DNA of 64,000 bases from Caenorhabditis elegans (lineage: Eukaryota; Nematoda; Chromadorea; Rhabditida; Rhabditidae). The notes beneath the pieces are model-generated. The model searched no databases, was not told where the DNA came from, and saw nothing but the letters and a program-made list of their open reading frames with translations. The position numbers and the translations under genes are program-made. The stretch covers positions 3,840,501-3,904,500 of the forward strand of contig NC_003280.10 of assembly GCF_000002985.6 (NCBI RefSeq), read 5' to 3'. Shown in pieces: positions 32,511-64,000 of the stretch. Each line of letters starts with the position of its first letter. The first letter of the stretch is position 1.

Positions 32511-33040
32511 TAAAAAATTTGTATCCTTAGAAGTGGAGTTTTCCGTCTTCAAATAAAAGTACTAGGAGCAGAAATTTTTTCATAAACTATGTTTTCTGTC
32601 CGACTTTTTGGCGTTATCAATATTTTTTTGAATAACTTTTTCTTTCCAACCAAAATGTTTTTTCAGAATATTTGGATTTACCGCCAACGAAATGACGTTT
32701 TAATTGTGACGTCACAATAAAAGCAGACAGAAAATTTGACTGTTTTATATAAAAGTAATGATGAATGAACAATTAATTTGATTTTATTAATTAGGGTCAG
32801 ATTATTAAAATAGAAAAAAACAACAACATAAAATTAAGGTTTTAGAGTTTCCTGCTCTTTTGCTGAGCTCTAACGCCGTCGATATTTTCTCCGCCGACAG
32901 CCACGCGAATCACCAACTCCTCGAGCTCACTTGTGGTTAGTTTATTGGGGTTCATTGATTTCCACGGAGCTAATAAACTATTCTTTGATTTTCAAAAATA
33001 CTTCAAAAGCTTGAAATTTGTAACTTTATTGTAAAATTAA
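32511..33040. other. Intergenic containing a duplicated gene fragment
   Basis: From about 32590 to 32940 it resembles 36730-37060 in the same orientation, including upstream AT-rich sequence and part of a coding exon (listed separately). Confidence 0.6.
32842..32938 (-). pseudogene. Fragment of the last exon of the small gene at 36964-37396
   Basis: On the minus strand it reads TSELEELVIRVAVGGENIDG then VRAQQKSRKL and TAA, nearly identical to the C-terminal exon of the 110-residue gene upstream of the neprilysin gene. The earlier part of the exon and exons 1-2 are absent. Together with the intact gene it flanks the neprilysin gene. Confidence 0.85.
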
Positions 33041-36000
33041 TCAGAAAAGATCACATTTTTTCTTTGGATTCATAGGCGATCCTAACGGGCAATTGAATGT
33101 CTCCGCAAATTGCGGCATATTTGCATAAATCCCGTTCACACGAAAATTGTTCGTTGGGTGTTCTCGTTGTAATGCGTACTGCAAATCTGTGGTGTCACGC
33201 TGTCGGCACCAGATCTGGAAATATTTTCAGATTTTTGAAATTCAGCTTGAGCAAACAACTTACCAGAGCTGCCGTTCTGAAATAGAGCTGATCAATATTA
33301 AAGTTCTGAAATCCTACAATTTCAGACTCGTTTGACAAGTCCAACTTTTTGAATGTTCTCCAGGCGGCTTCAACTCCAAATCTGTCAGCCGAGATTTCGT
33401 GAAGGGTTTTTGATCCGTTCAGCTGAAATTAAAACCGTCATGCCTGCCTGCCTACCGCCTATTCAACTACATTTTAATGTGACACTACAATATCACTACT
33501 CTACCACTACAGTACCGTTACAGTAACCCTCCATTACCAGTACAGTAACACTACCATATCACTACAGTATCACTACAGTAACTCTGCGGTACCATCAGAG
33601 TAACCCACCATATCACTACAAAACTACTACAGTAACCCTGACGTATCACTACCAAGGCTGTGCGGCTGGTGAAAAAATTTGGCTGTCGGCTGGCGCCGAC
33701 AGCCGAGTGGTAAGGATTGGGCTTTATTTCTGACGCCGACAGCCGGATTGGGCTTTATTTCTCGGCTGTCGGCTGTCAGCTTTCTTCCTTTCACAGGGAC
33801 AATTTTTCAAATATACGTTTAAAAACGGCCAAAAACTACTATTTTTAGCTTTAATATATGAAATACCTTCTGATCGGAGCATATTTTGGACAATTTTTTT
33901 GTGAATTTGTTTTTGTAAAATTTTTCTAAACAGCCGAGATACTGGCTCTCGGCTGACGCCGACAGCCGACAGCCGCACAGCCCTGATCACTACAGCAACA
34001 GTCTAGTATCCCTACAGTAGTCCCAGTGAACCTACAGTAGCCTACGGAACTACTACAGTAACTTAGAATAACCCAATAAACTCTATCTCTCACATTCCTC
34101 CCAAAATCCGGATCATCATATTCGTCGTGTTGCCTCAACAAGCATCGGAGCCTCTTTCCATACTCTTCTGAATCTTCCGGTGTGAGCCATATCCGTTGTT
34201 GGCCAGCATCATCATAGTTTATCCCGGTGTGATCAAACGCGTGGCCGATCTCGTGTGCCAACACATTCCCGATTACAGCCAGATTCACGTAGCGTGGAAA
34301 AGTTGTGTCGAAAATTGGATCATCTAGGACTGGAGCGAGAATTGCTGGAATCAGAAGCTTTTGAACCTTTTTTTCTGAAATCCAAACTAACCCAAAAAGT
34401 TGGTGTTCTGATAAAACGCATTTGCGTGCAAAATTGGCTGTCGTGGATCTAGTGGGATCTCCGAGGCGACAAACTCCATACACTGCTCATTAGTGAATTT
34501 TTGAATTTTTCTGACGATCGTGTGATATGAATCCGTTTGTTCTATGTTAAGCTGAAATTTAAAGTTTAGAAAAATCACATTACTCTAGAGTTCATACATC
34601 TTTAAACGACCTATCCAATGTCCCAGGTGGCTCGAAAAAATCTGGATAACCAATCATTGATTTGATATTTTTCACTTTTTGAACTGCAACTTTCTTGGAT
34701 TCTTCGTTGAGCCACGTAGACTCCTGAATCATGTCGATGAAGCCCATCTTCACGTCTTCAATCATTCCGGCGACATATTTCCGATTCTCTTTATCCAAAA
34801 AGTTTTGCACAAAGACACGAGTAGAGGCTCTTGGGAGGAAGTCGATGACAACCTGAATTTTTCAATAAATGTTTACTTGATAATATAGGCAAGGTACCCC
34901 TTCGCATTGCTCCTCCGGCAATCTTTTGTATTCCAGCATTACAGATTTCAAATAATTGAAAATCAAGTAATTAACCAGTGATCGGTTTGGTGTGGTTTGG
35001 ATGAGCCTCTCGAGCTGAAAATACGGAACTTCGCTCAAAATAACATAACATCGTTCAGAATAGGCTGACATAGCTCAGAAAAACGTGGCCTCGCTCAGGT
35101 TGACGAGGCCTTGCTCAGGATAAACTAAGTTTGCTCAGGAGAAGTAGAACCGCGCTCAAGATCGCAGTTCGAGGGTTGCTCTTGCTCATCCAGTGAGCAA
35201 GAGCAATCCTTAAACCTCGCTCAAGCTATGCTCGCTTTCCTAACTCAACTCACACTTGTAGTTTCATTGACAAAAAGCATGTGCTTCTTGGTGTTAATCC
35301 GTTTTACTACCTTCCCCAATAAACTTTTCCTCTCAATAATTTGAAATCGGTAATTTTTCAGTAATTTTTGCAGTAAAATAAAACCAGAATTACAAAAAAA
35401 TCCAAGTTTTCAGATCACATCATTTCAAAAATCAACGTTTTGAAATCCACACTTGGCACGAGCGTTTGCAGCTCCGCAAATGACAATTCTTCAGTAGGAT
35501 AATCAGATGTGATCTGAAAACTTGGATTTTTTTGTAATTCTGGTTTTATTTTACTGCAAAAATTACTGAAAAATTACCGATTTCAATTCACGCTGTAGAT
35601 TCTCATACTCCCTCAAATCATTTTCGATGGCTGTGATATTCGGCTGAAATCCGTTTCCTAGGAAGACTTTTGAGATTATCTGAAAATTACAATACTATTT
35701 TTTAGGCAGGCAGGCGTGAGGTAGGCAATAACTTACATCACTAAGATTCTCGCGTGTTGGAAAGTTCCGAGCAGGTTTAATTTCCACAAATGCATCTGAT
35801 GAAATTATAATTTCAAAGAAGCCGAAATTCGAAACACCGAGCCGGATTAGACTGAGCAGCATTTCTGGAATAGTTTGACAGTTTTAAAATTTTTAATTTG
35901 AAACAAAAAATTACCATTTAAATTGAACTTTTTCCCATCCCAATTCTCATCTAAAACAGGCCAGGATCCAATTTTTTGAATGTTCATGAAAATTTCTTGT

Positions 36001-36637
36001 AGTAGATTTTGATTTCCGAGAACCTGAAAAAAGTTTGCTTTTGAAAGTAAAGGCACCCGACATCTACCGGGCTCAAATTTCGTTCAACTTACTTTGATAG
36101 TTTTTGCCTCCTTACACTTCTCGTAGAGTAGCTTCATGGAATTTTCAGATTTTGAGGTGGAACTTTGGTTTTTGTGTAGAAAATCTGAAATGATAGGTAC
36201 TATAGCTTGAACAGGCGCCTCTGCTCACCTCTAATCAATCTTTTGACAATTTGCTGCTTCTGTGCAGTTCTGGAGCCATCTATCACGTTGTGCTCGTTGT
36301 ATTTCCCACATGCGGCCTGATAGAAGTTCTCGCACGGATCGACGGATGGGTCTTGGAAGTTGAGCTGAAAATAAGGTTTTCATGCCTACCTGCCTGCCTA
36401 CCTGCCTAGACCTACCAATTGATGAACCAGTGTTATACATTCTGGAGTCAGGCACATAGGCTTCGGTTTTGGGCTAGCCGAACTGGTTGAGTGATTGGAG
36501 CAGTTTTCAGAAACTTCACCACCAATTTTTCCGGCTTCAAGTAAAAGTACTAGAGGCAGAATGACGATTATGGGTACAGCCAGGATTATTATAACTGTGA
36601 CAAACGAATTTTTGCTTATTATTTCTATTTTTGACAT
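33041..36637 (-). CDS. Neprilysin-like M13 zinc metallopeptidase, possibly disrupted
   Basis: Minus-strand exons: 36637-36416, 36364-36229, 36184-36093, 36023-35915, 35864-35737, 35679-35578, 35513-~35422, ~35340-35254, 35014-34877, 34852-34598, 34551-34392, 34374-34094, 33422-33264 and 33214-33041. It is a type II ectoenzyme: membrane anchor (VTVIIILAVPIIVILPLVLLL), then DPCENFYQAACGKY, STWLNEESKK, ANAFY, the zinc site AHEIGHAFD (HExxH), the third-ligand motif HEISADRFG (ExxxD), and the Cys-containing end CPLGSPMNPKKKCDLF. M13 enzymes cleave extracellular peptides. An 81-bp perfect inverted repeat (35341-35586) covers the end of exon 6, intron 6 and the start of exon 7. Exon 7 then runs into TGA at 35417-35415, and the inverted copy contains no AG acceptor before exon 8, so a normal full-length product looks unlikely. 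An in-frame ATG at 36805 exists upstream; 36637 puts the anchor near the start. Confidence 0.85.
33480..34070. repeat. CTACAGTA-type repeat tract in neprilysin intron
   Basis: Long degenerate array of CACTACAGTA(AC/TC) words filling the intron between the zinc-site exon and the next exon, interrupted by the palindromic element at 33656-33982. Confidence 0.75.
33656..33982. mobile_element. Non-autonomous element with GGCTGTGCGGCTG terminal inverted repeats
   Basis: Ends are GGCTGTGCGGCTG (33656-33668) and its complement CAGCCGCACAGCC (33970-33982). Inside, several CGGCTGTCGGC / GCCGACAGCCG palindromic blocks lie at both sides (33688-33775 and 33933-33975) around an AT-rich core. No coding capacity. 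Target duplication is obscured by the surrounding CACTAC repeats. Confidence 0.7.
35035..35230. repeat. GCTCAG-rich degenerate repeat with hairpin
   Basis: About nine CGCTCAG/TGCTCAGG/AGCTCAG words, ending in a hairpin whose arms are TTGCTCTTGCTCA and TGAGCAAGAGCAA (35174-35204, 5-base loop). It sits in an intron of the neprilysin-like gene. Confidence 0.7.
35341..35586. repeat. Perfect 81-bp inverted repeat (foldback) in neprilysin gene
   Basis: 35341-35421 and 35506-35586 are exact reverse complements by direct reading, separated by 84 bp. The arm comprises the last 9 bases of exon 6, the whole intron 6 and the first 8 bases of exon 7. The loop is the rest of exon 7. Identity over 81 bp including intron sequence implies a recent event. 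Confidence 0.95.
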
Positions 36638-36963
36638 AATTTTTGTGTTAACTCTGGAATATTGCATTAAAACTAGGAGCAAAAAATAAAAATGCATACC
36701 ATTTGCTAAATCTTGAAACGGAGAAATAAATTTGTTTTTCATAAACAACGTTTTTTTTTCGATTTTGACGTTATAATTTTTGAATGATTTATTCTCTCCC
36801 GCCAAAATAATTTCTTCAAAATATTAAATTTCCCGCCAAAAAATTTTTCTCAGAAAAATTAACTATTTTATTTAAATGTAATGATAACTGGATCAATGGA
36901 ATTAAATGGAATTAAAGTCAGATTATTAAAATTTAAAAAAAACTACAACATAAAATTAAGCTT

Positions 36964-37396
36964 CTAGAGTTTCCTGCTCTTCTGCTGAGCTCTGACGTCA
37001 TCGATATTTTCTCCGCCGACAGCCACGCGAATCACCAACTCCTCGAGCTCACTTGTGGCTTTGAATGCTCCTTCCAGACGCTTTCTGACTTCCTAAATTA
37101 GACTTTTCAAATAATTTTCAACTTTTCAGTTTATCACCTACCACTTTGTACGAAGTTCTTCCCAAATTCAAAATAGTATTCAGGTTATGAGATAAGGATC
37201 TGACAGGCTTTTTGAGCTCCTCAATGGCGGAGGTTTTCTGGAAAAATTGGAGTAAAATAAAAGAAATATTTTAAAAAAATTCACAAACCGGATTTTGTAG
37301 CAAAGTTTGAAGGCATCTTAGTTTGCCCTCAATATTTTGCATTTCTCTGGAAGAGAGCAATCGTGGAGTTCTAGGAGTTGTGGTAGCAGAAGTCAT
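36964..37396 (-). CDS. Small uncharacterised protein, 110 residues
   Basis: Three exons (37396-37289, 37237-37142, 37092-36964) give 110 residues ending QQKSRKL. The protein is hydrophilic and mostly helical in character (REMQNIEGKLRCLQTLLQ; VRKRLEGAFKATSELEELV), with no signal peptide or membrane segment, so a soluble intracellular, perhaps coiled-coil subunit is plausible. I do not recognise the family. It lies upstream of the neprilysin-like gene on the same strand, about 330 bp from its start. That spacing is larger than the ~100 bp typical of nematode operons, so co-transcription is uncertain. A second copy of its last exon is at 32842-32938. Frame and splice sites are intact. Confidence 0.72.
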
Positions 37397-62381: not shown

Positions 62382-64000
62382 ATGAGTCGCCTTATCTGGA
62401 GCTTCTTGCTCATATGCTCTTTATTGAGTAGAAGTATAGATGCAAGAGGCGGTGGAGGTCGTGGCGGCGGTGGCGGTGGTGCGCGAGGTGGTGTAGGCGG
62501 ACGCGGTGGAGGTGGCAGCTTCAGATCAGGAGGAGCCCGATCGAGCTCCAGTAGTTTTAGGTAATTTTTATACTAGTTTTTCAAGTTTGGAAAGGTTTTT
62601 CCAGGGGAGGAAGTAGTCACTATAGCTCGAGTTTCCGGCAGAATGTATTCCACACCAGCTCAACTGCTAAGACATTCGCCTATTCTCCAATGACTCGCAC
62701 TCATCTCATCATCTCACCTGCTTCTCCGATGATGTAAGTGTATGCTTGTATAATTTCCCAATTAGTTAGGCCTGTAACACGGGTCAGGATGGCGGCCACA
62801 ACCAACAGACTCGGATTCCAGATGACCCCCGGAAATGGGGGTTACAGACCCTTATCTATTTTCTTTCAGTTACGGAAACTACCATTACTATTGGGCAGGA
62901 CATCATGTGAACACGACAGAAAAACCGTATAAGTGTGATTATCAAATATCTGATGAGGATATGGAATTGAGAAATGTTAGTTTTTTGGTCTTTTTAGTTC
63001 AAATAAATTCTACATTTCACAGGTAACATTTGCAAATGGTACAAGACCAGCAAATATTACTTTTGGGTGCGCAGAATATCAGATCTGTTGTGGAATGGAA
63101 TGTTGTACTGGTTTAAGTGATTTGGAAGGATTGTTAGTATAAGCTGTTTAGAAAGTAATTATTTACTGATTTCAGTATGGTTCTTATTGGTGCGATACTG
63201 GTGGCATTTCCCTTTGGGTTGCTGATTATTTGGATGGATAAAAAAGGATATTGTCAAGGCGACACGGTAAATCTTACTAGGGACTCTTTTTTGATGACAA
63301 GAGAGTTATGGGTCGAATGATATGTTTTCTGAAAGCTAAGACAATGAGCATTTTGAATTCAAAATAAAGTCTTGCCCAAATTGATGTTTAGACAATTTTT
63401 TTTGCTCCGAATGCGTATTTAAGCCAAAATGTCGTTGTTTTTAAAGCTTCATATCTTAATGGGCTTTGAAGATACAACATAATAATTTACTAACAAAATG
63501 TTAAAAACAATACAAAAATTATTATATCAATATGAACACTTTGATTTTTCCATTTCATTTGAAAATATGAGACGATGAAATTTTAAGCTAATTTATAGCT
63601 ATTTAAATGCTTATAACTACAGGAGTACGTAACATATCAAATGAATTTATAGTTTACGATAATTTTCGTATTGTTCCTAACATTTTGTTAGTTGATTATT
63701 ATGTTGTATCTTCAAAGCCCATTAAGATATGAAGCTTTAAAAACAACGACATTTTGGCTTAAATACGCATTCGAAGCAAAAAAAATTGTCTAAACATATA
63801 TTTGGGCAAGATTTTATTTTGAATTCAGAATGTTCATTGTCTTAGCTTTCAGAAAATATATTTCTCAACCCATAACTCTCTTGTCGCCAAAAAAGAGTCC
63901 CTAGTTAGTGAAAAATTCAAATCACAATAACTTTACAGACTATCACAGGAAACGAGCGTCCTAGATCAGCTCCAGAATTTCAAGAACTCACTCCCAGGGC
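62382..64000 (+). CDS. CX-module single-pass membrane protein 4, Gly/Arg-rich, 3' end outside window
   Basis: Exons 62382-62560, 62605-62733, 62870-62975, 63023-63132, 63176-63266 and 63939->64000. Signal peptide SRLIWSFLLICSLLS, Gly/Arg tract (GGGGRGGGGGGARGGVGGRG), Ser-rich part, CX module (NYHYYWAGHHVNTTEKPYKC, NGTRPANITFGCAEYQICCG, MECC), and TM helix (MVLIGAILVAFPFGLLIIW). The tail begins TITGNERPRSAPEFQELTPR and continues beyond the window. It is closest to paralogue 1 in architecture. Intron 5 is swollen to 672 bp by the foldback element at 63277-63904. Confidence 0.87.
63277..63904. mobile_element. Foldback / MITE-like element with ~240-bp terminal inverted repeats
   Basis: Begins CTAGGGACTCTTTTTTG and ends with the complementary GAGTCCCTAG. 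The arms remain alignable for roughly 240 bp each with scattered mismatches, including the exact shared block CTTCATATCTTAATGGGCTT. Flanked on both sides by TTA (63274-63276 and 63905-63907), a 3-bp target duplication of the kind made by PIF/Harbinger-type transposases. No coding capacity. Confidence 0.88.

Follow-up and report, generated by a model that had tools for sequence, protein, structure and literature searches.

We have identified an 81-bp perfect foldback in a gene of the M13 (neprilysin) peptidase family of Caenorhabditis elegans, which is most likely the result of an ordinary, fairly young, frame-breaking template-switch mutation, long and clean. One fold-back template switch probably inserted 77 nt into an exon of this gene and broke it; both the loss of function and the relative youth of the event are what we infer. 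The analyzed window is a stretch of 64,000 nt (positions 3,840,501–3,904,500 of the second contig) from a genome of 100,286,401 bases assembled in seven contigs. The features discussed below are collected in Table 1.

Table 1. Features of the foldback and of the gene harboring it (window coordinates).
Feature	Position	Strand	Basis or comment
Neprilysin-like (M13) gene	33041..36637	−	ATG to TGA
Stop codon TGA of the gene	33043–33041	−	Gene model translation
Source arm (exon 6 end, intron 6, exon 7 start)	35506..35586	−	
Spacer, or hairpin loop, 84 nt (exon 7 body)	35422..35505	−	Arm positions, exon comparison
Inverted copy of the source arm	35341..35421	−	81/81 complementary
Inferred net insertion, 77 nt	35341..35417	−	Joined flanks in frame, gapless against L022 and L027
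Rest of the original exon (exon 8 of the initial annotation)	35254..35340	−	Continuous with exon 7 in 7/7 paralogues
In-frame TGA from the insert	35415..35417	−	Codon 296
Candidate 89-nt intron	35330..35418	−	GAT/GTGATC ... TTGAGAG/G (slash, exon–intron border); in frame, four original codons lost

Results

The host gene and its neighborhood

Judging by its N- and C-terminal domains and the HEXXH motif, the gene is a predicted M13 (neprilysin) peptidase gene. Two matches to PF05649 (59.4 and 63.9 bits, profile positions 1–123 and 255–381) and one to PF01431 (276.6 bits) are above the Pfam cut-offs in the pieces flanking the insert, and the catalytic motif, HEIGH, is encoded by exon 12. The middle of the PF05649 profile, where the insert sits, is unmatched, the query having consisted of the two flanking pieces with exon 8 left out. 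Besides the insert, no further frame or splice-site break was found across the gene from 33041 to 36637. The splice sites of its 12 other introns, taken from the gene model, are all of the GT...CAG type, the 47-nt intron at 34391–34345 being placed by comparison with the paralogue L018.

The candidate gene name C49D10.10 / nep-3 gained no support from a literature search and was not adopted. The locus is named in no title or abstract opening among the literature matches listed, and the available text of a paper on the M13 family (PMC2259306) mentions neither pseudogenes nor the M13 gene of this locus.

The intron near the 3′ end of the gene is 671 nt long and contains degenerate repeats of the CTACAGTA type, recurring in steps of 11 nt, as well as GGCTGTCGGCTG inverted elements (33502–34062). 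The gene is surrounded by a partial direct duplication (32576–32936 versus 36735–37058, 75% identity in a 364-column alignment), together with a 35-nt, 89% match to exon 1 at 32539–32573. This duplication (32539–32936 / 36527–37058) is old and partial, and the 3′ end of a small neighboring minus-strand gene, seen by eye, seems to be part of it. A fragment of a close relative, with an in-frame stop, is found at L063 6333–6856 (contig C2 3,836,833–3,837,356, plus strand); it is 81% identical to the gene at the DNA level in a 543-column alignment, with only the last two of 14 exon queries matching well within the 10 kb covered, and is a putative pseudogene copy about 36 kb from the gene.

A perfect inverted pair built from the gene's own sequence

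The perfect 81-bp foldback described in the initial annotation is correct to the exact coordinate: two arms of 81 nt each, complementary in 81 of 81 positions, are separated by a spacer of 84 nt. The composition claimed there for the source arm is likewise confirmed, as it holds 9 nt of the exon 6 end (35586–35578), the whole of intron 6 (64 nt, 35577–35514), and 8 nt of the exon 7 start (35513–35506). In 20 single-base shuffles of the window, the longest exact inverted arms within 1.5 kb are 13–18 nt. Exact inverted arms of at least 50 nt within 1.5 kb were observed only twice in 178,625 bases (18 merged segments), one pair being the 81-nt foldback and the other, the 79-nt core of an inverted repeat at the right end of the window. 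The latter repeat (63273–63522 / 63659–63908; 250 nt, 92%, arms 136 nt apart) is perhaps a palindromic element. No Rfam family matched the hairpin at the gathering score in the 35200–35750 region.

Scanning of the genome with the 35330–35600 fragment yielded no match except its own position and its own reverse complement, in a search that scores only the best candidates and passes over very common words. C. elegans carries many inverted-repeat elements, and an inverted repeat lies at 63273–63908, so that insertion of a palindromic transposon or MITE should be considered. However, the genome search gave self-matches only, and the arm consists of the gene's own exon–intron–exon sequence; with no second genomic copy found, a transposon or MITE origin is refuted within the reach of this search, and we regard it as extremely improbable.

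The insertion point in paralogous genes

In all seven paralogues examined (L007, L012, L018, L022, L027, L030, and L031), a count that leaves out other matched M13 genes, including the near ones L046 and L053, the homologous point lies inside a single unbroken exon. A tblastn search with the exon 7–8 peptide retrieved four of them (L018, L022, L012, L007), and three (L027, L030, L031) were located by position between flanking exon matches. The initial annotation had placed the copy between exons 7 and 8; this needs to be corrected, as these two are one exon in 7/7 paralogues and the copy sits inside it. Exon 8 as a separate exon is ruled out by the same comparison. The copy is lacking in all seven of these paralogues.

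When the flanks are joined without the insert, they are in frame (...FEMM followed by IIERK..., or, in a longer form, ...VPSVDFKTLIFEMM followed by IIERKSLLGKVVK...). The joined flanks align without gaps to L022 and L027; the alignment with L018, L030, and L031 is gapless at the point itself, with length differences further along, and L007 and L012 are short of one residue just beyond the point. In L012 (reverse strand, approximately 1900–2440) the reading frame, read by eye, seems to shift some 13 codons beyond this position, and hence this paralogue may itself be damaged.

GATG at 35418–35421 is common to the flank and to the start of the copy, and constitutes a 4-nt microhomology (GATG/CATC) at one junction; exact microhomology was also looked for at the second junction, and none was found. 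As the flanks are in frame and gapless, and the paralogues have a single exon at this point, the simplest history would be that the exon gained 77 nt by insertion and lost nothing, GATG being already present before the event. The frame would also fit an insertion of 80 nt, in which case the microhomology would be 3 nt long and 2 nt (AT) would be duplicated.

The origin and age of the insert

The initial annotation attributed the foldback to template switching rather than to a transposon, and we come to the same conclusion, based on the single genomic match, the neighboring reverse copy, the microhomology at one junction, and the in-frame flanks. The copy is the reverse complement of nearby sequence, at 81/81 positions and 84 nt away, and synthesis appears to have returned to the original template with the flanks preserved, these being in frame when joined, and gapless relative to L022 and L027.

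Such a switch would occur at a stalled fork or by priming from a break end. The 3′ end of the growing strand, ...GATG, would pair with a CATC located 84 nt earlier on the same strand, 77 nt of this strand (exon 6, intron 6, and exon 7 sequence) would then be copied in reverse, and synthesis would go back to the next template base. We lean slightly towards replication rather than break repair, because there is apparently no deletion at the junction.

Fold-back artefacts occur in sequencing, and the foldback might have arisen during assembly or cloning and be absent from the worms. However, the sequence resumes at the apparent next original base with the frame kept, while an artefactual foldback is not expected to return, and the genome is assembled in seven contigs; we consider an artefact very unlikely.

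Points against the template-switch reading preferred here are the second junction without exact microhomology, the length of 77 nt compared to the median of 12 nt in great apes, and the alternative of an 80-nt insertion. Moreover, the gene is otherwise unbroken, which fits a young loss, but equally a gene still in use.

With mutation rates of 2.1–2.7 per billion bases per generation, zero differences in 81 pairs yield a 95% upper bound of approximately 7 to 9 million generations for the age of the copy. Gene conversion between the arms could mask a greater age.

Consequences for the transcript

If the insert is kept, the first stop is codon 296 of 696, ahead of the catalytic motif and its exon (696 codons being 695 residues and the stop with the insert left out, that is, (2166 − 1 base past the stop − 77)/3). 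The earlier statement that the foldback leaves a TGA after exon 7 agrees with this in-frame stop. Retention of the insert is the expected default, because neither the acceptor of exon 7 nor the donor of exon 8 is damaged; translation of such a transcript would end ahead of the catalytic exon, and the transcript itself would be degraded.

The RNA of the 35250–35690 region is predicted to fold into an 81-bp stem with an energy of −169.6 kcal/mol, compared to −90.7 ± 5.8 kcal/mol in 100 shuffles (z-score −13.6), and the predicted stem spans two splice sites, the donor of intron 6 and the acceptor of exon 7. In silico, this supports the fold over the latter site that was proposed earlier, and the pre-mRNA may form a hairpin burying both sites. 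An effect of this hairpin on splicing is plausible, since complementary stretches flanking exons promote skipping and back-splicing in C. elegans, according to the available text of PMC8330042.

Possible in-frame removal of the insert

An alternative reading is that one template switch gave birth to an intron or made an exon skippable, by providing the reversed intron copy with a donor site and a partner stem, and the gene survives via in-frame splicing-out of this copy (89 nt) or of the whole exon; we consider this unlikely, and both the newborn intron and the forced skipping are unproven. Among splice pairs with products longer than 620 aa, to which the list was restricted (shorter ones, e.g., exon 5 to exon 9, are outside it), 26 bypass the insert and keep the frame. 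The scores given below come from a small splice-site matrix trained on the same gene family and including the sites scored.

The smallest removal among the 26 pairs (donor 5.0, acceptor −4.8) is that of the candidate 89-nt intron, from the GT at the left edge of the copy (35418) to an AG of the old exon (35330). The initial annotation argued that the copy has no AG on the coding strand to serve as an acceptor; this is true of the copy itself, but the argument needs correcting for the adjacent sequence, where AGs end 9 and 11 nt beyond the copy (35332 and 35330). Splicing of this intron would preserve the reading frame and yield a protease of 691 aa, with four residues fewer than the protein of the empty site; the donor score lies only slightly under the range of the 12 other donors in the gene (5.7–10.5), and the gene has no other visible lesion. 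However, the acceptor score is below those of all 29 acceptors compared (3.0 to 13.4), and the base at its position −3 is G, found in none of these 29 (26 C, 3 T). The AG at 35332 scores higher (1.9), but it also has G at −3 and is out of frame with this donor, being in frame only with other donors, e.g., that of exon 6. Moreover, the donor would sit within the hairpin stem. With so small a matrix, the scores count against a new intron without being decisive; its birth appears quite improbable.

The strongest pair of sites among the 26 bypasses joins exon 6 to exon 9, dropping the insert together with 61 residues and keeping the frame (634 aa), and could be forced by the hairpin, if intron 6 pairs with the insert and thereby masks the exon 7 acceptor. 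Other skipping variants use the AG at 35332, with products of 660 aa from exon 6 and 626 aa from exon 5. The exon 6 donor (6.7) and the exon 9 acceptor (13.4) are normal, and reverse-complementary matches flanking exons promote skipping in C. elegans (PMC8330042, available text). Still, the intron 6 donor shares the stem and would be hidden as well, the matches described in that text lie in introns around the skipped exon, while here one arm is inside an exon, and folding may fail in a product whose M13 N-terminal region is 61 residues short. Hairpin-forced skipping has, in our estimate, a low probability.

Discussion

The preferred reading, a template-switch insertion, may be compared with several known systems, described here as far as the available texts of the cited papers go. 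Short template switches in great apes have reverse fragments with a median length of 12 nt and a maximum of 128 nt, and 65.0% of events lengthen the sequence (PMC7954356); template switches are held to make RNA stems in one step (PMC8794818). The studied case resembles such four-point switches (PMC7954356, PMC8794818) in the use of a nearby reverse complement, the perfect inverted repeat made in one step, the lengthening, and the return to the template. It differs in length, as 77 nt is far over the great-ape median, although under the maximum (PMC7954356), and also in that the copy spans an exon–intron–exon stretch, lands in a coding exon, and is recognized from paralogues rather than from an ancestral allele.

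For Pol theta, two paired bases can suffice to start fold-back synthesis, which may account for inverted insertions, and templated insertions have been reported in C. elegans, among others (PMC11292364). The insert is similar to those arising by Pol theta stem-loop priming or templated end joining in being inverted, templated, and primed by few bases, but the insertions in the available part of that paper are short, whereas here the insert is long and apparently no base was lost at the junction.

With the matches behind skipping and circular RNAs in C. elegans (PMC8330042, available text), the foldback shares complementary stretches enclosing exon sequence, which could be looped out. In zip-2, deletion of either reverse-complementary match almost abolished skipping and back-splicing products (PMC8330042). 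The differences are that here one arm is in an exon, the stem lies over splice sites, and the RNA structure is a predicted one. Long perfect inverted repeats within protein genes are also observed in mitochondrial coding palindromes of Nematomorpha, where, in the available text (PMC6649704), both arms encode conserved protein, while the copy studied here adds a stop.

Template-switch mutations are a known kind of event, and the case described here is a long one in the genome of a model animal, in which one can read the source of the copy, the place where it landed, and the frame. An exonic 81-bp hairpin over two splice sites could mean the death of a gene, a new intron, or forced skipping accompanied by double-stranded RNA. 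If the intron or skipping reading were true, reverse copying would be a route to intron gain or alternative splicing, caught in the act.
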